Below are positions 8,560 to 17,252 of a stretch of DNA of 50,434 nt, in pieces. Under the pieces are notes generated by a model. That model saw nothing but the letters and a program-made list of their open reading frames with translations. It was not told where the DNA came from and did not search any database. The first letter of the stretch is position 1. The number at the start of each line of letters is the position of its first letter. Location of the stretch: the NCBI GenBank assembly GCA_019638575.1, contig JAHBTN010000011.1, positions 71,180 through 121,613 of the forward strand. Direction: 5' to 3'. The position numbers and the translations under genes were made by a program. This stretch comes from Ferruginibacter sp. (GTDB taxonomy: Bacteria; Bacteroidota; Bacteroidia; Chitinophagales; Chitinophagaceae).

Positions 8560-8858
8560 TTTTTATATAGCTGTTATCTATTTCCGCAATGAGAAAAAAT
8601 GTTTTCGTAAATAGGAAATGAATATGTTTAAGTATAAAAATAAAATTAATGACGGGGCATGTTTTACAAAGAAATACTTGGGTTGTATTGTTGTTGATGA
8701 AGTTACCAATAATGGCAGTAGCTGAGAGCTAATCTGTATTGGATATTTGCCTTAGGTTTTGTTGCCAATAGATAAACTCATTAATAATTTTCATTTTATA
8801 CTATTTGGTTGGATAGGCATGTTTAAATGCCGTATTCAAAAATTATTTTATGCTTCAT

Positions 8859-8888
8859 TTTGTAAAATAGAATGGGGTATTATCTTTA
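8859..8888 (+). promoter_or_regulatory. Promoter of the AraC-type regulator
   Basis: TTTG (8859-8862), an 18-bp spacer and TATCTTTA (8881-8888) closely match the Bacteroidota pattern TTTG-N19-TAnnTTTG. Transcription would start near 8894. This rules out the longer open frame upstream and supports translation from 8927. Confidence 0.5.
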
Positions 8889-8926
8889 CAGTTGTCCAAA
8901 AAAAGATAGCGACCTTTACCTGCATA

Positions 8927-9310
8927 ATGAGTACCAGGATTAATAAACCGGAGAAAAGAAGTAAGGAAATTACTAAGGCCTACTTTGCTTTTTTGGACAA
9001 TCATCTCAATGATATTGTAACGGGCAGGGAAACAGTAATGATGGAGTTGAATGAAATTGCTGCTGCATTGTTTATGTCGCATACGCATCTTACCGATACC
9101 ATTCAGCAAACGATGGGGCATCATCCCTGCCATTTTTATGATTTAAAAATAATTGAACAGGCAAAAAGATTGCTGCTGACTACTTCTCGTTCCATTGCAG
9201 ATATTGCCCTCACCCTTACTTACGACCCTTCTAACTTTTCAAAGTTTTTTAAAAAGTTTACCGGGCAAACACCGGGAGCGTTTCGCAGGCAGCATCATAA
9301 ACAGAGTTGA
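8927..9310 (+). CDS. AraC-family HTH regulator, short form
   Basis: From the ATG at 8927 (MSTRINKPEKRSKEITKAYF) the product is 127 residues, essentially only the DNA-binding part. The first helix-turn-helix (MELNEIAAALFMSHTHLTDT) and the second (SIADIALTLTYDPSNFSKFF), ending in FTGQTPGAFRRQH, are standard for AraC/XylS proteins. The open frame extends upstream to 8759, but a promoter at 8859-8888 lies inside that extension. No ligand-binding domain is present, so it may respond through another protein. Its likely targets are the divergent porin operon or the DoxX gene 96 bp downstream. Confidence 0.82.
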   Translation: MSTRINKPEKRSKEITKAYFAFLDNHLNDIVTGRETVMMELNEIAAALFMSHTHLTDTIQQTMGHHPCHFYDLKIIEQAKRLLLTTSRSIADIALTLTYDPSNFSKFFKKFTGQTPGAFRRQHHKQS

Positions 9311-9406: not shown

Positions 9407-9754
9407 ATGATTCTAAAAATTCTCAATGGCATTTTGATGCTCGTAGCCGTATATATGGGATTGAAGCAAGGCTATGCCATGTTTTCGGGCAAGGCCGAAA
9501 TGGTCGAAATGTTTAGCAAATGGAATTTTAACAAAACCGGATTGATGATAACCGGTGCGGTTACCATGTTAAGTGCTGTGCTCATTTTGTTTCCCAAAAC
9601 ATTTGTGTGGGGCAACTTTTTGATGGCTGCCGGTATTTTGATGATTATATGTTTTCATCTTTTGGATAAGGATTTGAAAGGAGTGGCCATAGAACTTCCG
9701 TTTTTATTGCTCAACCTGCTAATCATTTATCTGCAACATCCATTGAAAAAATAA
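9407..9754 (+). CDS. DoxX-like small membrane protein
   Basis: This 115-residue protein has four hydrophobic segments (about 3-20, 45-62, 67-84 and 93-110). The opening ILNGILMLVAVYMGLKQGYA and the middle GAVTMLSAVLILFP are in the style of DoxX/SURF4-like four-helix membrane proteins. It has no catalytic motif. It follows the AraC-type gene and precedes a small lipoprotein gene by 44 bp, so a shared transcript is possible. The function is unknown. Confidence 0.6.
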   Translation: MILKILNGILMLVAVYMGLKQGYAMFSGKAEMVEMFSKWNFNKTGLMITGAVTMLSAVLILFPKTFVWGNFLMAAGILMIICFHLLDKDLKGVAIELPFLLLNLLIIYLQHPLKK

Positions 9755-9798: not shown

Positions 9799-10245
9799 AT
9801 GAAAAAGGTTATATTACCTGTGTTGCTATGCAGTGCTATGATAGCTTGCGGACAAAATAAAAAGACTTCGGAATCTTCGCCATCTAAAAGCAAAACTAAT
9901 TCTACCCAAACTAAAAAATCTGACAAAATGGATTTATCAAAAATTACAAACGAAACCGTAAGAAAAGCTATTGAAGCCTTGCAGACCGGCGACCAGAGCT
10001 GGTACAGTTTTTTTACCCCAAATCCTGCCATGACTGATGATGGCAATAAAGTGGATTTCAAAAATTTCTTCGCCAAAGCCCTGGGGGAGGAAAAATTTCT
10101 TTCGATAGATAAGGTAGAAAACGAGGGTAAAGATGTGTATGGAAATTTTAAAGCCGGGCAATGGGGTACTTTCAAAGTATATTTTAAATTTCATCAAAAC
10201 GCAGAAGGGAAGTTTGACCGGTTGGACATTGGGCAGGCAAAATAA
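9799..10245 (+). CDS. Small lipoprotein with NTF2-like domain
   Basis: This 148-residue protein has a signal sequence and lipobox ending at AMIAC17GQNKK. A lysine/serine-rich linker follows (about 22-45). The C-terminal 100 residues (VRKAIEALQTGDQSWYSFFT, then FFAKALGEEKFLSIDKVENE and GTFKVYFKF) look like an NTF2/SnoaL fold with its initial helices and curved sheet. It is probably anchored in the inner or outer membrane. A methyltransferase gene begins 35 bp downstream. The function is not recognisable. Confidence 0.6.
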   Translation: MKKVILPVLLCSAMIACGQNKKTSESSPSKSKTNSTQTKKSDKMDLSKITNETVRKAIEALQTGDQSWYSFFTPNPAMTDDGNKVDFKNFFAKALGEEKFLSIDKVENEGKDVYGNFKAGQWGTFKVYFKFHQNAEGKFDRLDIGQAK

Positions 10246-10280: not shown

Positions 10281-10802
10281 ATGAATAAATACAAAACATT
10301 ATTAGAAGGCTTTACTGCATTTCATCATCCAAATCATGCTGAACAATGGGCTGACCTGGGTTGTGGATCAGGTGTATTTACTGAAGTGCTGGCAAATGTA
10401 TTACCCGCAAAAAGCAACATTGTGGCCATTGATTCTAAAACACAATATCTTCCCCATGCAATGGGTAATGCTGTATCAGTTCGTTTTCAGAAGAATAATT
10501 TTGAAACAGATGATTTGAATTTACCGGCACTGGATGGCATTATGATGGCAAATGCTTTGCATTATATATCATCAAAGGAATCTTTAATTTTAAAACTGGA
10601 AAGATGTTTTCAGGATAATCCATTGTTTGTGATGGTGGAGTACGAAAAGTCACAGCCCAATGCCTGGGTGCCTTTTCCTATTCCATATGCAAATATGAAA
10701 GCGTTGTTTCAGCAATTAGGCTACAAAACCATAAAAAAATTGGGTGAGCAAAAATCGGTTTATGGTGAGATGATGTACGCTTGTCTGATATCTAAAAACT
10801 AA
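10281..10802 (+). CDS. SAM-dependent class I methyltransferase
   Basis: This 173-residue protein carries motif I (WADLGCGSGVFTEVLAN, residues about 23-39), the acidic end of strand 2 (IVAID) and motif IV (DGIMMANALHY). The Rossmann-fold methyltransferase core is complete but short, with a late segment MVEYEKSQPNAWVPFPIPYA. The UbiE/Methyltransf_11-like pattern suggests a small-molecule acceptor, which cannot be named. It ends 17 bp before the antiporter gene, so it may be the first gene of the antiporter-bestrophin transcript. Confidence 0.82.
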   Translation: MNKYKTLLEGFTAFHHPNHAEQWADLGCGSGVFTEVLANVLPAKSNIVAIDSKTQYLPHAMGNAVSVRFQKNNFETDDLNLPALDGIMMANALHYISSKESLILKLERCFQDNPLFVMVEYEKSQPNAWVPFPIPYANMKALFQQLGYKTIKKLGEQKSVYGEMMYACLISKN

Positions 10803-10819: not shown

Positions 10820-12427
10820 ATGCATCATACTTTACTTTATATTTTAGTTTTACTTTTTGCAGTTTTCCTCCTGGTGATGCTGGCTAAAAGGATACGGGTT
10901 GCTTATCCTGTTTTTTTAGTAATTGCAGGATTAGTCATTAGCATTATACCTGGAGTTCCACAGTTGCATCTGGATCCGGAGCTCATCTTTTTAATTTTTC
11001 TGCCACCACTTTTATATGAAGCGGCCTGGTACACTTCATGGAATGATTTCTGGAAATGGAAACGACCAATTGCCTTGCTGGCTTTTGGTTTAGTATTTTT
11101 TACATCCACCATAGTTGCTTATGCTTCCTCTTCAATTATTCCGGGGTTTACACTTGCTCTGGGTTTTTTATTGGGTGGCATTATTTCGCCACCCGATGCA
11201 GTAGCTGCGGCAACAGTGTTGAAAGGTATGGGGGTTCCAAAAAGGCTGATGACGATACTTGAGGGTGAAAGTTTAGTGAATGATGCATCATCATTGATTG
11301 TTTTCAAATTTGCATTGGCTGCTGTGTTAACCGGGGCTTTTTCTATGCAGGAGGCTACGGGTCAGTTTTTTCTTGTGGCTGGAATGGGGATTGTAATTGG
11401 ATTGGCAGGAGCTCATGTTATGTATGTCATTCATCGGTTTTTACCAACCACACCGCCCATTGATGCTGCGCTTACCGTAATGACGCCTTATATCCTATTC
11501 CTTTTAGCAGAGCAGTTTCACTTTTCGGGAGTGATGGCAGTGGTGAGTGGTGGTTTGTTTATGTCGTACCGCTCACATGAAGTATTTCAAACCGGAAGCA
11601 CCCGATTGAATATGTTAGGTGTTTGGACTACTATGATATTTGTGATGAATGCACTGGTGTTTGTATTGATTGGTTTGTCCCTTCCTGAAATTGTTGCCGG
11701 CCTGGGCGAGTATTCTGTTATGGATGGTATTAAATATGGATTAATCATTAGTACCATCACTATTGTATTGCGTTTTCTGTGGGTGTATCCTTCTGCATTT
11801 GTGCCCCGGTGGCTAAGTGCTAAAGCAAGGCAGGATCCTTCGCCGGGTTGGAAAGGCCCTTTGGTGATCAGTTGGGCAGGGATGCGTGGTGTAGTATCAT
11901 TGGCTACAGCGCTTTCCATTCCTTTGCTGATGACAGATGGCACAGCTTTTCCTCATCGAAACCTGATTATATTCATCACATTTGTTGTCATATTTGTTAC
12001 ACTGGTTTTCCAGGGATTGACGCTTCCCTTTATCATCAGGCTTATTAAGCTAAAAGAGATTGATAATATTATTCCTGAGGACGAACAGGAGGCAGGTATT
12101 CAGTTACGCCTGAATCAACTAGCGTTAAATATCATTAATGAAAGATATACCAATGAGGCTAAAGAAAATGAGTTGGTAGGTTTTTACAAAACCAATTTGG
12201 AAGAAACGATAATCAACACCAGTCAGCGATTGGAATCTTTAGAATGCGACGAAACCGAACAATATGAAATAGAACTGTATCATCATGTATTGCTGGATAT
12301 TTATGCACAACAACGCAAAGAACTTTTCAAACTTCGCAAAGAAAAATATTTCAGTGATGAAGAAATCAGAAAGGCAGAACTGCAATTGGATTTAAATGAA
12401 TTGAAAATTACAGGTGCAGGTCACTAA
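10820..12427 (+). CDS. CPA1-family monovalent cation:proton antiporter, copy A
   Basis: This 535-residue protein has about 12 hydrophobic segments in residues 1-410 and a charged cytosolic tail (411-535) rich in Glu, Lys and Gln. The core motifs PPDAVAAATVLKGMGVPKRL and EGESLVNDASSLIVFKFA, with the ion-binding Asn-Asp pair, and SWAGMRGVVSLATALSIPLL, are diagnostic for CPA1 (NhaP/NHE-like) Na+(K+)/H+ antiporters. A second, clearly homologous antiporter is at 15678. Its place 12 bp before a bestrophin channel gene suggests joint control of pH and anions. Confidence 0.92.
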   Translation: MHHTLLYILVLLFAVFLLVMLAKRIRVAYPVFLVIAGLVISIIPGVPQLHLDPELIFLIFLPPLLYEAAWYTSWNDFWKWKRPIALLAFGLVFFTSTIVAYASSSIIPGFTLALGFLLGGIISPPDAVAAATVLKGMGVPKRLMTILEGESLVNDASSLIVFKFALAAVLTGAFSMQEATGQFFLVAGMGIVIGLAGAHVMYVIHRFLPTTPPIDAALTVMTPYILFLLAEQFHFSGVMAVVSGGLFMSYRSHEVFQTGSTRLNMLGVWTTMIFVMNALVFVLIGLSLPEIVAGLGEYSVMDGIKYGLIISTITIVLRFLWVYPSAFVPRWLSAKARQDPSPGWKGPLVISWAGMRGVVSLATALSIPLLMTDGTAFPHRNLIIFITFVVIFVTLVFQGLTLPFIIRLIKLKEIDNIIPEDEQEAGIQLRLNQLALNIINERYTNEAKENELVGFYKTNLEETIINTSQRLESLECDETEQYEIELYHHVLLDIYAQQRKELFKLRKEKYFSDEEIRKAELQLDLNELKITGAGH

Positions 12428-12439
12428 ACACTTTATCAA

Positions 12440-13450
12440 ATGAATACTTCTTCTCATTATAAACTACAACACTTCATTCCCTGGACAAGGCAAAAGATTT
12501 TCAAAATGCTTTTATTAAGCCTTGTACCTACTGTTTTGTTTTATTACTTAGATTGGAAATGGATTGCAATTCCGTGGGTTCCTGTAGCATTAATCGGTAC
12601 TGCAACAGCCTTTATTTCCGGATTTAAAAATACTCAAACCTATAACCGAATGTGGGAAGCCAGAACTATTTATGGTGCGATTATTAACAGCAGTCGTGCA
12701 TTTGGGATGATGGTAAAAGACTTTATTCGAACCGATGTGAACGAAAGAGATTTGCACAAAGAAGTAATCTATCGTCATTTTGCATGGCTCACCGCATTGC
12801 GTTTTCAGCTTCGTGAGACCAAAAGCTGGGAAAATGTCAAAACCAAAAGTTACAACAAAGAATATTTAAAATATTACCAGGTTCCGGAATGGGAAAGTAG
12901 TTTAGATGATGAACTAAAAGCTTTTCTATCGGAAAAAGAAAGACAATATATTTTGTCCACAAAAAACAGAGCTACTCAATTGTTGGCACTACAATCGGCG
13001 CAACTCAAAGAACTCAACAAGCAGGGTTTCATTTTGGATTATAATTATGTTGCTTTGGAAAATCAGTTAAAAGATTTATTTGACCAGCAAGGGAAAGCAG
13101 AGCGAATTAAAAACTTTCCGTATCCCCGGCAATTTTCCAGCATCAATTTATATTTTACCAATCTGTTATGCTTTCTTATTCCTTTGGGATTTATTGGTGA
13201 ATTATCCAAATTGATGGCAAATATGGGTGACTGGGTGATTTGGTTAACTATTCCATTAAGTGTTTTAGTGGGTTGGGTTTTTTTGGTTTTGGAACAAATT
13301 GGCGAAAGCACTGAAAACCCATTCGAAGGCAGTGCCAACGATATTCCCATTACCCAGATCAGCAGGAATATAGAAATTGATTTAAGGGAGATGCTGGGTG
13401 AAAAAGATTTACCACCGGCTATTCAGCCACAGAATAATATCATTATGTAA
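12440..13450 (+). CDS. Bestrophin-family anion channel
   Basis: This 336-residue protein begins HFIPWTRQKIFKMLLLSLVP and continues with IPWVPVALIGTATAFISGFK then TQTYNRMWEARTIYGAIINS, the hallmark N-terminal half of bacterial bestrophins (RFP-TM/UPF0187). Two hydrophobic segments lie near residues 22-55 and two near 233-285, matching the four-helix bestrophin topology. The C-terminal ENPFEGSANDIPI with its following residues also fits the family. Bestrophins conduct chloride and, in several cases, bicarbonate, while some bacterial members prefer cations. Here the LCIB-type carbonic-anhydrase homologue at 14377 makes bicarbonate a plausible cargo. Confidence 0.88.
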   Translation: MNTSSHYKLQHFIPWTRQKIFKMLLLSLVPTVLFYYLDWKWIAIPWVPVALIGTATAFISGFKNTQTYNRMWEARTIYGAIINSSRAFGMMVKDFIRTDVNERDLHKEVIYRHFAWLTALRFQLRETKSWENVKTKSYNKEYLKYYQVPEWESSLDDELKAFLSEKERQYILSTKNRATQLLALQSAQLKELNKQGFILDYNYVALENQLKDLFDQQGKAERIKNFPYPRQFSSINLYFTNLLCFLIPLGFIGELSKLMANMGDWVIWLTIPLSVLVGWVFLVLEQIGESTENPFEGSANDIPITQISRNIEIDLREMLGEKDLPPAIQPQNNIIM

Positions 13451-13652
13451 CAGATAAATGTTGCAGTCCTTGATTGCTATTGATAAGGTATTGCCACAGA
13501 TGCACAGATGGACTGGTGAGAATTAGTAGATCAATTATTTACTCGTGTGTCAGATATAATCAAAGTATAATAGTGTATCAGTAGATAAAGCCTTTATTCA
13601 TTGTAGAAGTTTATAGCAAATGAATTTCGTTGCTTTGTATTAATAATCGATT

Positions 13653-13872
13653 ATCTGTGTATCTGTGGCAACAGCAACTCATCTGTGCATCTGTGGCGAC
13701 AGTAACTCATCCGTGCATCTGTGGCAACAACAATTAATCAGTGCATCTGTGGCAATAACAACTCATCCGTGCATCTGTGGCAACAACAACTGATCCGTGC
13801 ATCCGTGGCAACAGCAACTCATCTGTGCATCTGTGGCAAAAAAGAAAAACTTATCTGTTCATCTATGGCAAT
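13653..13872 (+). repeat. 28-bp tandem repeat array, about 8 units
   Basis: Units start at 13653, 13681, 13709, 13737, 13765, 13793 and 13821, with an exact 28-bp step through 13820. A 32-bp unit and a decayed unit from 13853 follow. The core ATCYGTGCATCTGTGG is itself a doubled ATCTGTG, and each unit ends in roughly CAACARCAACTC. There are no unique spacers, so it is not a CRISPR array. Since 28 is not a multiple of 3, it does not encode a repeated peptide. The remaining bases of the 13451-13902 spacer show no gene. Confidence 0.9.
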
Positions 13873-13902
13873 TTTTATTTTGTGGAAACTAAAATATGAG
13901 CC

Positions 13903-14277
13903 ATGAATTACTTTCCCTTAAAAGAAGAGACCTATCAAATCATTGGTGCCTGTATGGAAGTTCACAACACACTTGGCGCAGGTTTTTTAGAAGTTATTTA
14001 TAAAGATGCATTAGAGTTAGAATTTCTTAAGGCCGGTATTCCTTTTGAAAGGGAAAAAGAGTACATCGTTAATTACAAAGGAACCATCCTGCCACATCAT
14101 TTTATTGCAGACTTTGTAGTATTTGATCAGATAATATTAGAAGTAAAAGGAGTAAAAAGCATAGCTGAAGAGCACATAGCCCAAACCCTTAATTACTTAA
14201 AAGTATCGGGGAATGAGATTGCTCTTTTGGTAAATTTTGGAGAAATAAAATTGAATTATAAAAGATTAATATTATAG
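13903..14277 (+). CDS. GxxExxY family protein (predicted PDDEXK-like nuclease)
   Basis: This 124-residue protein has the family motif GAGFLEVIY (GxxExxY, residues about 25-33), preceded by the conserved helix TYQIIGACMEVHNTLG. Downstream, FIADFVVFDQIILEVKGVK gives an Asp, then Glu-x-Lys, the spacing of a PDDEXK nuclease core, followed by AQTLNYLKVSGNEIALLVNF. The family is widespread and often present in many copies per genome. Its nuclease role is predicted from the fold pattern. Here it lies inside a block bounded by inverted copies of a 19-bp motif and directly follows a 28-bp tandem array, which suggests that the gene and repeats act or move together. Confidence 0.88.
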   Translation: MNYFPLKEETYQIIGACMEVHNTLGAGFLEVIYKDALELEFLKAGIPFEREKEYIVNYKGTILPHHFIADFVVFDQIILEVKGVKSIAEEHIAQTLNYLKVSGNEIALLVNFGEIKLNYKRLIL

Positions 14278-14376
14278 CATCAATTCATATGTGTATCTCG
14301 GTATTTAATTTGAACATAAACTCCTCTGTGCATCTGTGGCATTTAATAAAATCATCAAAAAATTATACCTAAATAT

Positions 14377-15120
14377 ATGAGCAACCAACATTTAGCATCC
14401 GTAAGAAAATGGTATCCCAAAGCATTAACATCTATTGATACTGTTAACCGCCTTTTAGACACGATTGAAAGAGAATTAGGTTTAAAACCACATCAATTGA
14501 TGCACGCAGACAGTATGTGTTGCGACGATGTTAATGCCATACAATACCCACCAAGAGCCTATGAAATGTTAGGGCCATTTCATTTAGGTGGTTTAGACGG
14601 TTTTCCATTTGCAGGAATTACCGGCATGAACGCCTTTGCACATCACGTACCAGAGGATGGTGCAGTGCTTGTGTTTTATGCACCTCATATTGGAGTAACC
14701 AAAGATGGTACAATTGGAGAAATTCACCGGTTCGGACAGTCTAAAAACTCCGGTTGCTGTGGAGCAGCATCTGCAGCAGTTGGAAAATTGCTAAAGAATG
14801 AAATTATTGCCGGTGCTGTCACCGATTTAGATTATCAGCAAAACACCATTGAACAAATATTCCTACAACAAGCCGAAAGAATTAAAGCAGCATCCAATAA
14901 AATATTTGAAGCCACCGAAGTAATGTACGAGGCAATTGATAACCGCATTGAGGCTCTGGTAAAAGAAACAAATTATCCATGTAAGTATGTGTTGTTGGTA
15001 GGTGCTGTCTTCATTAATGGAGATAAGGATATGGGATCATTCTGCCAGTATAAAAAATTTGATTGCCTGAACCTTGAAACAGGGGAAAGAAAAAATATGC
15101 TTAATGAATACTACCTGTAA
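14377..15120 (+). CDS. LCIB-type (limiting-CO2-inducible protein B) beta-carbonic-anhydrase family homologue
   Basis: This 247-residue protein lines up with the conserved core of the algal LCIB/LCIC family. The aligned blocks are SMCCDDVNA (C48, C49, D50, D51), GGLDGFPFAGITGMNAFAHH (residues 71-90, H89/H90), VFYAPHIGVTKDGTIGEI and GQSKNSGCCGAA (C127, C128). In LCIB proteins, Cys and His residues in these blocks hold zinc and an Asp sits at the active site of a beta-carbonic-anhydrase fold. Some members are active enzymes and others are not. There is no signal peptide, so it is cytosolic. It lies between the GxxExxY cassette and a pseudogene scar, within an antiporter/bestrophin neighbourhood. 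The match was made from memory of the family's motifs; activity is unproven. Confidence 0.82.
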   Translation: MSNQHLASVRKWYPKALTSIDTVNRLLDTIERELGLKPHQLMHADSMCCDDVNAIQYPPRAYEMLGPFHLGGLDGFPFAGITGMNAFAHHVPEDGAVLVFYAPHIGVTKDGTIGEIHRFGQSKNSGCCGAASAAVGKLLKNEIIAGAVTDLDYQQNTIEQIFLQQAERIKAASNKIFEATEVMYEAIDNRIEALVKETNYPCKYVLLVGAVFINGDKDMGSFCQYKKFDCLNLETGERKNMLNEYYL

Positions 15121-15148
15121 ATTAAAAAATTATTTCCCTGAGTATAAG

Positions 15149-15376
15149 TTAACTGATTGCGTTGTACACTTCATCATCCACCTGCTCTAACCATTCCGCT
15201 TTGCCTGCGGTAATGGCGATATGTGCAAACCAACTGTCTTTGGTGGCGCCATGCCAGTGTTTTACGCCATCATGTGTATCTACCACATCACCGGCTTTTA
15301 AAATTGGGCAGGTTTTCCTGCTTCCTGGTACCAGCCTTCGCCACCGGTTACCAAAAATATCTGAAAGCCACGTGTG
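15149..15376 (-). pseudogene. Cupin-domain protein fragment, 5'-truncated and frameshifted
   Basis: Read on the minus strand, one frame gives FQIFLVTGGEGWYQEAGKPA and the next frame continues LKAGDVVDTHDGVKHWHG, then a segment ending VYNAIS and a TAA at 15149. Together these are the second half of a small cupin with the GDVV and HWHGA metal-site motifs. The frame change near 15303 fits loss of one A in an A/T run. The 5' half is missing: similarity stops near 15376, where a plus-strand AraC fragment begins. The gene is dead. Confidence 0.8.
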
Positions 15377-15538
15377 ATAATTATTATCAACAAAGCCAAA
15401 AGCGAATTAATTGCCAACAATTCAGTAAGCGAAACTGCTTTTAACCTGGGTTTTGCTTCGCTGCAGGGCTTAAGTCACTTTTTTAAATTACATACAAATA
15501 AGACACCAGTGGAATATGTGAAATCAAAAAAACGGTGA
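15377..15538 (+). pseudogene. AraC-family regulator fragment, only the C-terminal HTH left
   Basis: The plus strand from 15386 reads INKAKSELIANNSVSETAFN then LGFASLQGLSHFFKLHTNKT, PVEYVKSKKR and TGA at 15536. This is the last helix-turn-helix of an AraC/XylS protein. No start codon or first HTH exists upstream, because the neighbouring bases belong to the opposite-strand cupin fragment. The remaining bases to 15677 are AT-rich and hold the upstream region of the second antiporter. Confidence 0.8.
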
Positions 15539-15677
15539 AGTGCTTATAATAATGGATTATTTGAAAATTATCATTCCTTCAAGTTTGAATTTTATTTTCA
15601 CCAACCTTTTTAGGCATTAAAAAATGGTGATTTATCGTACATTAGTTAAATCAACTTTAAAAAATTAATCAACCTGA

Positions 15678-17252
15678 ATGATTGAACAATTCTCTTTTTT
15701 TCTTGTACTTGTTATTGCTATGATTTTGTTGATCATCCTGGCCAACAAAATAAAAGTTGCATATCCTATACTGCTTGTTGTTGCCGGTTTGCTTATTAGT
15801 TTCCTGCCGGGCATTCCGGTTATGCATATTAATCCCGAATTGATATTGATTATTTTTCTTCCGCCACTGTTATATGAAGCAGCCTGGGCTATCTCCTGGA
15901 AAGAGCTTTGGTTTTGGCGGCGTGTAATCAGTAGCTTTGCTTTCCCGGTTGTATTTCTTACTGCTTTATCTGTTGCATTTGTTGCCAATGCATTTATTCC
16001 TGGCTTCTCGCTTGCATTGGGTTTTTTATTGGGCGGCATTGTTTCGCCACCTGATGCGGTAAGTGCAGGAGCCATTTTGAAATTTGTAAAGCTTCCTAAG
16101 TCAATGGCATCTATGCTGGAAGGCGAAAGCCTGTTGAATGATGCTTCTTCATTAATAATATTTCGCTTTGCAGTACTTGCAGTAACAACCGGTCAGTTTA
16201 TTTGGTATCGGGCGGCTCTCAGTTTTGGGTGGATGGTTTTGGGTGGAATTGCTATCGGGTTAATTGTTGGATGGCTGTTTATGAAAGCACATAAATTTCT
16301 CCCAACCGATTCCAGGATGGATGTAGTACTAACTTTTGTTACACCTTATGTAATGTACCTGGCAGCGGAAGAAGTGCATAGCTCAGGTATTATGGCAGTG
16401 GTAAGCGGAGGGTTGTTACTCTCTGCTAAACGCAATGTTTTTTTGAGTAGCACATCCAGGCTACGGGGATTTTCTGTTTGGGAAAGCCTGGTATTTGTTT
16501 TAAACGGGTTGATATTTTTGATGATTGGTTTAGATCTACCAGAAATTACTTCCGGCTTGCAGGGAGTTAGTCTTTCATCGGCGATTGGTTATGGCCTCTT
16601 AATCTCTGCTGTGTTAATTGTGGGCAGAATATTGACTGCTTACGGCGCTGTTATATTTACCATGATTGCAAAAAATTTTATTACAGTAGCAGATACCCGA
16701 AACCCCGGACTAAAACCTCCCTTTATTTTGGGATGGGCCGGCATGAGAGGTGTGGTGTCGTTGGCTGCCGCTTTTTCCATTCCATTATATATGGATGACG
16801 GAACTGCATTTCCACAGCGCAATCTTATTTTGTTCATCACTTTTATTGTGATACTCACAACGCTTTTGGTACAGGGTTTAACACTGCCATTTATAATTAA
16901 AGCGTTTAATATTGGCGACCGGCATCAATCAATGAGTGAGGAAGAAATAAATAATATGATTAAAAAAGAATTGGCAAGCTATACTTATCAGTATATGACA
17001 AACAATTATGCGGAAGAGTTGAACAAAAGTATTTTCTTCCGGCAGTTAGCAGATAAACTAAAAAATAAAAGTCATCCTGATGCTGATCCTACCATGCCAG
17101 CCTCTGATAAAGCCATTTACCTTGATATTTTAAATAAGCAAAGAGAATGGCTGATTAAAAAAAATCAATCCGATGTGCATCTTGATGAAGAAATCATCCG
17201 CAAACATTTGTATCAACTTGATATGGAAGAAGAAAAATTGCAAGTGATTTGA
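15678..17252 (+). CDS. CPA1-family monovalent cation:proton antiporter, copy B
   Basis: This 524-residue protein is homologous to the antiporter at 10820 throughout. Shared blocks include the N-terminal half (ILANKIKVAYPILLVVAGLL), PPDAVSAGAILKFVKLPKSM, EGESLLNDASSLIIFRFAVL with the Asn-Asp pair, and GWAGMRGVVSLAAAFSIPLY. Hydrophobic segments fill residues 1-410 and a charged cytosolic tail follows. It is a diverged paralogue, not a recent duplicate. It has its own upstream region after the pseudogene scar. The pair brackets the bestrophin, GxxExxY and LCIB-like genes, which fits an island for ion and inorganic-carbon balance. Confidence 0.92.
   Translation: MIEQFSFFLVLVIAMILLIILANKIKVAYPILLVVAGLLISFLPGIPVMHINPELILIIFLPPLLYEAAWAISWKELWFWRRVISSFAFPVVFLTALSVAFVANAFIPGFSLALGFLLGGIVSPPDAVSAGAILKFVKLPKSMASMLEGESLLNDASSLIIFRFAVLAVTTGQFIWYRAALSFGWMVLGGIAIGLIVGWLFMKAHKFLPTDSRMDVVLTFVTPYVMYLAAEEVHSSGIMAVVSGGLLLSAKRNVFLSSTSRLRGFSVWESLVFVLNGLIFLMIGLDLPEITSGLQGVSLSSAIGYGLLISAVLIVGRILTAYGAVIFTMIAKNFITVADTRNPGLKPPFILGWAGMRGVVSLAAAFSIPLYMDDGTAFPQRNLILFITFIVILTTLLVQGLTLPFIIKAFNIGDRHQSMSEEEINNMIKKELASYTYQYMTNNYAEELNKSIFFRQLADKLKNKSHPDADPTMPASDKAIYLDILNKQREWLIKKNQSDVHLDEEIIRKHLYQLDMEEEKLQVI

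Follow-up and report, generated by a model that had tools for sequence, protein, structure and literature searches.

A putative mobile gene module combining an LCIB-family protein, a bestrophin and an exchangeable cation carrier in Bacteroidota

Here we describe a group of genes in a 50,434-nucleotide stretch of DNA from Ferruginibacter sp. (contig JAHBTN010000011.1 of assembly GCA_019638575.1; this whole stretch is called the window below). It encodes an LCIB-family protein, i.e., a homolog of beta-carbonic anhydrases (CAs), and the genes around it follow one another on the + strand in the order methyltransferase, CPA1 antiporter, bestrophin, GxxExxY protein, LCIB, second CPA1 antiporter (Table 1). 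The gaps are 17 bp between methyltransferase and CPA1, 12 bp between CPA1 and bestrophin, and 926 bp between bestrophin and LCIB. A preliminary description, made from the letters of this DNA, had given this order, the coordinates and the 12-17 bp spacing, all of which we confirmed, and its family assignments were borne out by profile matches (PF00999/TIGR00831 twice, PF25539, PF13366/TIGR04256 and PF18599). The comparisons reported here suggest that LCIB, the bestrophin and a cation carrier form a conserved and mobile module, which may load the cytoplasm with acid while exporting CO2 as bicarbonate.

The LCIB-family protein of the window passes the curated cut-off of its profile and contains the four blocks (CCDDV, TGMNAF-HH, APHIGV and GCCGA) that had been read from it earlier. 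Its nearest sequence in the Protein Data Bank (PDB) is 6kfs (E 4e-31). An AlphaFold model has a pLDDT (predicted local distance difference test) score of 85, with values below 50 in the active-site loop at residues 49-54. In a Foldseek search, ranks 1-8 are held only by PtLCIB4, 6kfs, LCIB or LCIC; PtLCIB4 and 6kfs come first, followed by LCIB/LCIC and then by ordinary beta-CAs, at E values of at least 0.02. The best structural match is the diatom protein PtLCIB4 (PDB 5b5y, the top entry, 5b5z and 5b60), with template modeling (TM) scores of 0.79-0.82 and 27% identity over the fold, and the bacterial protein is nearer to it than to LCIB/LCIC of Chlamydomonas. Residues C48, D50, H90, H104, R118 and C128 are present in the window protein and retained in every LCIB sequence that reaches the position (82 loci); C127 is variable, occurring in 52 of 53 Bacteroidia loci and 22 of 29 loci of a distant type. 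The Cys/His/Cys zinc site, the Asp/Arg and the His were presumptively assigned by alignment and from general knowledge of the family. H90 corresponds to H88 of PtLCIB4, and the window has C49, not Arg, at the position of PtLCIB4 S47, whose Arg mutant was crystallized (numbering by hand from mutant names). The Arg in the SDEVTR stretch of PtLCIB4 occurs at none of the 81 bacterial loci that reach the position, which is A54 in the window. Judging from these residues, the window protein keeps a complete presumed active site, and it is predicted to be catalytic.

Searches for LCIB and the survey of its neighbors covered Bacteroidota. Within the family to which the window belongs, PF18599 has a sparse and scattered distribution, being found in 10 of 294 genomes and in none of the five other genomes of the genus. 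A survey of the phylum found it in 35 of 395 genomes, including 27 of one distant family (f24) and two of another (f47). The matches in these two families, one per genome, constitute a second LCIB type (L052-L080), whose recurrent neighbors look, by eye, like housekeeping genes. Named genomes were also scanned with the window LCIB, a search that reaches close relatives only; it gave 45 loci, 40 of them at 71-87% identity and the others at 43-63%, in Chitinophaga, Sphingobacterium, Chryseobacterium, Epilithonimonas, Runella, Dyadobacter, Siphonobacter and other hosts. Neighboring genes were clustered for 53 deduplicated Bacteroidia loci, leaving out duplicates of named loci (L043-L047 and L051) and short versions of other loci (L001-L038). 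Fifty-one of these were evaluable, having at least 1.5 kb of upstream DNA; L117 and L121, at contig ends, have too little.

A bestrophin gene lies within three open reading frames (ORFs) upstream of LCIB in 45 of the 53 loci (45 of the 51 evaluable), directly so in 41 and on the same strand in all 45. Twenty-nine of these linked loci have a gap of no more than 30 bp between the two genes, and 39 a gap of no more than 100 bp. In the family survey, bestrophin stands beside LCIB in eight of the 10 genomes: directly in seven and, in the genome of the window, with the GxxExxY gene between them. Of the remaining two, one is cut at a contig end that carries a bestrophin fragment, and the other has no bestrophin. 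Neither result named in the preliminary description as refuting it was obtained: the LCIB profile match is significant, and linkage is conserved for bestrophin and usually for a cation carrier, although it fails for the distant LCIB type, discussed below. We have little doubt that the gene module is real and conserved.

The cation carrier occupies a slot before bestrophin that can be filled in two ways. Among the 45 linked loci, the slot contains a K+-channel-like protein of about 225 residues in 27, a CPA1 antiporter in 11, both in none and neither in seven, where "neither" stands for loci that neither the CPA1 nor the channel query matched. The mutual exclusion of channel and CPA1 gives 3e-6 in a Fisher test, uncorrected for kinship. 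The carrier gene directly precedes bestrophin in 33 of 38 loci and is separated from it by one ORF in the other five; in 32 of the 38, no more than 30 bp separate it from bestrophin. The channel-like protein contains an Ion_trans_2 domain (one member scanned) and finds K+ channels in PDB by profile (best 6.9e-7), and a filter of the K+-channel type, T-S/T-I-G-F/Y-G-D, is present in 27 of 27 copies. On a tree of LCIB and bestrophin with 38 labeled loci, the content of the slot changes at least four times. The first CPA1 protein of the window is 92% identical to the copy in L081 and 65-85% to other upstream CPA1 copies; the second shares 46% identity with the first and 42-53% with the upstream copies. 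In L082 and L083, CPA1 lies in two neighboring pieces, like one split gene, and other cation carriers are TMEM175, found additionally in L100, and a CPA2-like Na_H_Exchanger/TrkA_N protein behind LCIB in L120. For comparison, we took 40 bestrophin loci without an adjacent LCIB, i.e., the best remaining matches, one per genome (one of these genomes, G239, has LCIB elsewhere). The channel occurs at none of them and CPA1 at five, once on the opposite strand, so cation carriers are associated with the LCIB-linked version. Among the 16 recurrent neighbor clusters around these 40 bestrophins, inspected by eye and without profiles, no alternative CA was seen in the place of LCIB.

To our knowledge, the role of bacterial bestrophins is poorly understood. 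When aligned to KpBest, whose neck is I-I-F, the window bestrophin has the neck T-F-F, and the anion-type residue, F at the position of KpBest I66, is present in the window and in 45 of 45 LCIB-linked copies, all T-F-F. KpBest is Na+-selective and is shifted towards Cl- by I66F, and eukaryotic bestrophin anion channels have the neck I-F-F (PMC8496536, excerpt). The window protein shares its family and presumed pore with KpBest and other bacterial bestrophins but differs in the neck; the first neck residue is T in its clade and I in the eukaryotic channels. Because its neck is T-F-F, given the effect of I66F in KpBest and the eukaryotic I-F-F, the window bestrophin is likely an anion channel, and permeability to HCO3- is possible. 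T-F-F was also considered as a mark of LCIB linkage, the middle F being present in 45 of 45 linked copies and in none of 30 unlinked ones drawn from the best scorers among the matches listed; this was rejected, since 37 of the 40 close unlinked relatives are T-F-F as well.

The pair also appears to move between genomes. We obtained rpoB from 30 LCIB genomes and carried out Mantel tests on 27. Distances of LCIB and bestrophin are correlated with r 0.83 (p 1e-4), and those of rpoB with r 0.16 for LCIB (p 0.015) and 0.19 for bestrophin (p 0.007); leaving out L116 and L120, which are outliers, gives 0.72 for LCIB-bestrophin and 0.21 for rpoB-LCIB. Because the distances of the two genes track each other and those of rpoB only weakly, the LCIB-bestrophin pair is, judging from these sequences, horizontally mobile as a cassette. 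Individual comparisons with the window point the same way: L081 is 72% identical in rpoB, 88% in LCIB and 85% in bestrophin, and Chryseobacterium and Epilithonimonas genomes are 69% identical in rpoB and 74-81% in LCIB. The nearest genomes (L085, L087 and L102) show the usual order, with 86-88% for rpoB and 77-80% for LCIB. In 224 of the 310 genome pairs with rpoB identity below 75%, LCIB is more alike than rpoB; bestrophin is more alike in 149, pairs lacking a bestrophin being counted as not. Starred branches of the tree mix orders, e.g., Chitinophaga polysaccharea with Chryseobacterium and Sphingobacterium. As for vehicles, LCIB had no plasmid match at 1e-5, and no viral locus was confirmed for it.

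The reading that we prefer, with a probability of about 0.5, is that of a mobile operon module with three functions, an LCIB CA, a bestrophin and a cation path, which together would make an acid-loading and CO2 export mechanism. The genes would be read as a single transcript. Close to the channel, cytosolic LCIB would hydrate CO2, giving HCO3- and H+, and the inside-negative membrane potential would drive HCO3- out through bestrophin. With the K+ channel in the slot, K+ would follow HCO3- for charge balance, for a net result of K+ out and H+ in; with CPA1, H+ would be brought in against Na+ or K+. In either version a cation would be lost and a proton gained, so that the cytoplasm would be acid-loaded and respiratory CO2 would leave as bicarbonate, which may help the cell under alkaline or osmotic stress, and perhaps under electrophile stress. 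Unrelated carriers would be interchangeable in the slot because both would give cation/H+ exchange. At an assumed potential of -120 mV, the Nernst relation puts the concentration of a monovalent anion inside, at equilibrium, at about 0.01 of that outside; because the channel would be passive and the potential inside-negative, HCO3- would leave and not gather. Kef-type K+ efflux systems would likewise move K+ out and H+ in, the same net effect by different proteins, and only in L120 was a Na_H_Exchanger/TrkA_N protein seen beside LCIB. It is further possible, although we hold this more tentatively, that the module is a CO2-driven cation/proton exchanger with a physical LCIB-bestrophin pair that predates the algal CO2-concentrating mechanism (CCM) or is independent of it.

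Several observations weigh against the acid-loading reading. Six of the 51 evaluable loci (L048, L049, L050, L085, L122 and L123) have no bestrophin in the stretch examined, nor was one seen beside the distant LCIB type in the stretches examined (0 of 29 loci). A recognized cation carrier is missing in seven of the 45 linked loci, and 13 of the 42 inner branches of the LCIB and bestrophin tree are open forks, with several long branches besides. Bestrophin is far commoner than LCIB in the family (54 of 294 genomes, at E about 1e-102 or better and at least 47% identity, versus 10), so it evidently works without LCIB; and T-F-F is a trait of the clade, not of linkage (the three other copies of the 40 without adjacent LCIB are T-L-F). 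Distances of rpoB are still weakly correlated with those of both LCIB and bestrophin, and co-transfer by itself could reflect linked genes that have no common function. As far as the excerpted text of a review goes, none of three structurally studied LCIB homologs had CA activity in vitro (PMC5876011). Finally, in the window itself the 926-bp gap, with its repeats and GxxExxY gene, may uncouple transcription of LCIB.

The first alternative is bicarbonate supply, in which bestrophin would import HCO3- and LCIB would trap CO2 as HCO3- for carboxylases. It draws on the same protein pair in the algal CCM: an interaction of Chlamydomonas LCIB/LCIC with bestrophin-like proteins has been reported, and a two-step recapture of CO2 has been proposed in which LCIB makes HCO3- and bestrophin carries it through the membrane (PMC6708349, excerpt). 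The order of its proposed chemistry would also be that of the acid-loading mechanism preferred above. Both protein families of this system (LCIB/LCIC and BST1-3) recur in the bacterial module, which differs in having no Rubisco match in its own genome, an extra cation carrier, an operon and horizontal spread. However, canonical beta-CA (PF00484) was found in 44 of 45 genomes tested, with three matches in the genome of the window, so LCIB would be an extra enzyme and the need for bicarbonate is probably met already. Rubisco (PF00016) had no match in 13 of 14 LCIB genomes, the window's included, the one match being in G213, which agrees with the non-photosynthetic setting claimed in the preliminary description; and a passive channel at an inside-negative potential would lose HCO3-. 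We regard bicarbonate supply as unlikely. Of the two roles offered earlier, bicarbonate capture or pH control, the three beta-CAs and the expected loss through the channel weaken the former, and the pH direction is preferred.

Less probable still is that LCIB, bestrophin and their neighbors are stress genes that travel on one cassette with no joint biochemistry: the strong horizontal transfer, the occurrence of bestrophin without LCIB and the presence of an AraC-SDR-DoxX-lipoprotein block (SDR, short-chain dehydrogenase/reductase) in LCIB-less genomes would fit it, but the order is conserved with very short gaps across several orders, and the slot is filled by unrelated cation carriers, never both. 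Just as improbable is an osmotic or volume valve, in which K+ and anion channels would release KHCO3/KCl on hypo-osmotic shock and LCIB would refill HCO3-; the K+-channel-like protein in 27 of the 45 loci with bestrophin and LCIB and TMEM175 in L100 speak for it, but such a valve would not by itself need a CA, and the CPA1 version would be unexplained.

The conserved gene linkage suggests that the algal partnership of LCIB and bestrophin extends to non-photosynthetic bacteria. Whether algal LCIB proteins are working CAs is still in question (PMC5876011, excerpt); a small operon with exchangeable parts in culturable bacteria makes the function of LCIB and bestrophin testable without photosynthesis, and compact prokaryotic LCIB-bestrophin pairs can be offered to efforts to rebuild an algal CCM. 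Inorganic carbon supply in heterotrophs has been assigned to MpsAB/DAB and beta-CA (PMC8552792, excerpt), which, like the present genes, handle CO2/HCO3- in bacteria; the module showed no MpsAB-type protein, although no dedicated search was made. A full-text literature search, outside which most subscription papers lie, found no description of the operon, its swappable slot or its mobility. The component families are known.

Table 1. Genes and repeats of the same-strand run in the window (positions count from the first letter of the window)
Feature	Position	Strand	Basis and remarks
AraC-family regulator, first gene of run	8759..9310	+	PF12833 E 3.7e-18; TTG start, true start may be later
DoxX-like small membrane protein	9407..9754	+	PF13564 E 1.3e-7
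"sm", small putative lipoprotein, NTF2/SnoaL-like domain	9799..10245	+	SnoaL_2 matches of relatives; model
Class I S-adenosylmethionine (SAM) methyltransferase	10281..10802	+	PF13649 E 9e-9
CPA1 Na+/H+ antiporter, cation carrier of module	10820..12427	+	PF00999; TIGR00831 351.7 bits, cut-off 279.6
Bestrophin (Bestrophin_2), presumed anion channel	12440..13450	+	PF25539 E 1.2e-44, 153.5 bits, cut-off 27
Insert: inverted copy (13489-13510) and ~8 copies of 28-bp tandem repeat	13489..13880	+	Repeat search; outside module
GxxExxY protein (PD-(D/E)XK-like), probable insertion	13903..14277	+	PF13366; TIGR04256 138 bits; outside module
Less exact 28-bp repeat copy behind GxxExxY	14313..14351	+	Repeat search
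LCIB-family (beta-carbonic-anhydrase-like) protein, 247 aa	14377..15120	+	PF18599 E 8.2e-69, 231.7 bits, cut-off 25
Second CPA1 antiporter	15678..17252	+	PF00999; TIGR00831 336.7 bits, cut-off 279.6; place not conserved

The same-strand run begins upstream of the genes first described, with AraC, DoxX and lipoprotein genes preceding the methyltransferase. Across the 53 LCIB loci, DoxX occurs in 30 (always upstream on the same strand), the lipoprotein in 23, an AraC-type cluster in 22 (19 of 25 genes on the same strand), an aldehyde dehydrogenase in 12 and the methyltransferase in five; the last is also found at five of the 40 bestrophin loci without adjacent LCIB. The aldehyde dehydrogenase gives only a hint of a role in aldehyde or redox stress. 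Seventeen of 294 family genomes, three of them LCIB genomes, have the lipoprotein, and SDR, DoxX or AraC genes adjoin it in several that lack LCIB; the AraC-SDR-DoxX-lipoprotein block is separable from LCIB. In Terrimonas sp. NS-102 (L085), this block leads directly to LCIB, with no bestrophin or cation carrier at the locus; a bestrophin 53% identical to that of the window lies elsewhere in the genome. Conversely, an LCIB-less cassette in G103 (L259 and L186) retains methyltransferase, CPA1 and bestrophin, with two stops in the lipoprotein frame and DoxX in two pieces, and looks like decay after loss of LCIB.

The window lipoprotein had no Pfam match at 0.1, and SnoaL_2 matched 11 of 17 aligned members of its group (best 3e-4). 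Its model (pLDDT 84) matched NTF2-like folds among the best 50 of 1032 Foldseek entries. This fold made an iota-type CA a candidate, and weak signs of one were a PDB match to SgcJ with an E value of 1 and DUF4440 matches in two of the 17 members (best 0.018). The motif given for iota-type CAs is His-His-Ser-Ser (PMC8132391, excerpt); it is present in none of 24 copies, and the candidate was rejected. Also rejected was LCIB as the sole CA of its genome, which the three PF00484 matches rule out; genome searches for CAs other than LCIB covered PF00484 and PF00194, and the PF00194 match of this genome fell below the cut-off. One of the three beta-CA domains (G000 contig C36 82293-82748) sits inside a 733-residue open frame, perhaps a transporter-CA fusion.

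Two genes that the preliminary description had counted into the module appear not to be part of it. GxxExxY occurs within 10 ORFs of LCIB at two of the 53 loci, the window and L100, and a downstream CPA1 beside LCIB only in the window. Within the 926-bp gap, the 28-bp tandem array adjoins GxxExxY, with an inverted copy of the repeat before the gene and a direct copy behind it; the exact 28-bp pattern has seven matches in the whole genome, all in this insert, and its reversed control none. Scans of the window for RNA families and tRNAs gave no family at gathering score and no tRNA, and promoter-like sites showed no excess (25, versus 31.4 in shuffles). Terminator-like sites numbered 13, versus 6.8 in shuffles, and none was used in the analysis.

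The GxxExxY family has eight loci in this genome (nine matches, one gene being in two pieces). At two of them (L275 and L276, the latter in the window), an array of about three or more copies adjoins the gene, and at L280 and L281 there are two-copy repeats. In L100, GxxExxY likewise lies in the bestrophin-LCIB gap, with a short AT-rich repeat only, and the gap of L082 (8991-9990) has a 23S_rRNA_IVP gene between tandem arrays based on 7 bp. It is as if different small elements, each a protein plus a repeat, insert in the bestrophin-LCIB gap. Inserts between CPA1 and bestrophin were also seen, in L118 (IVP) and L096 (Fic).

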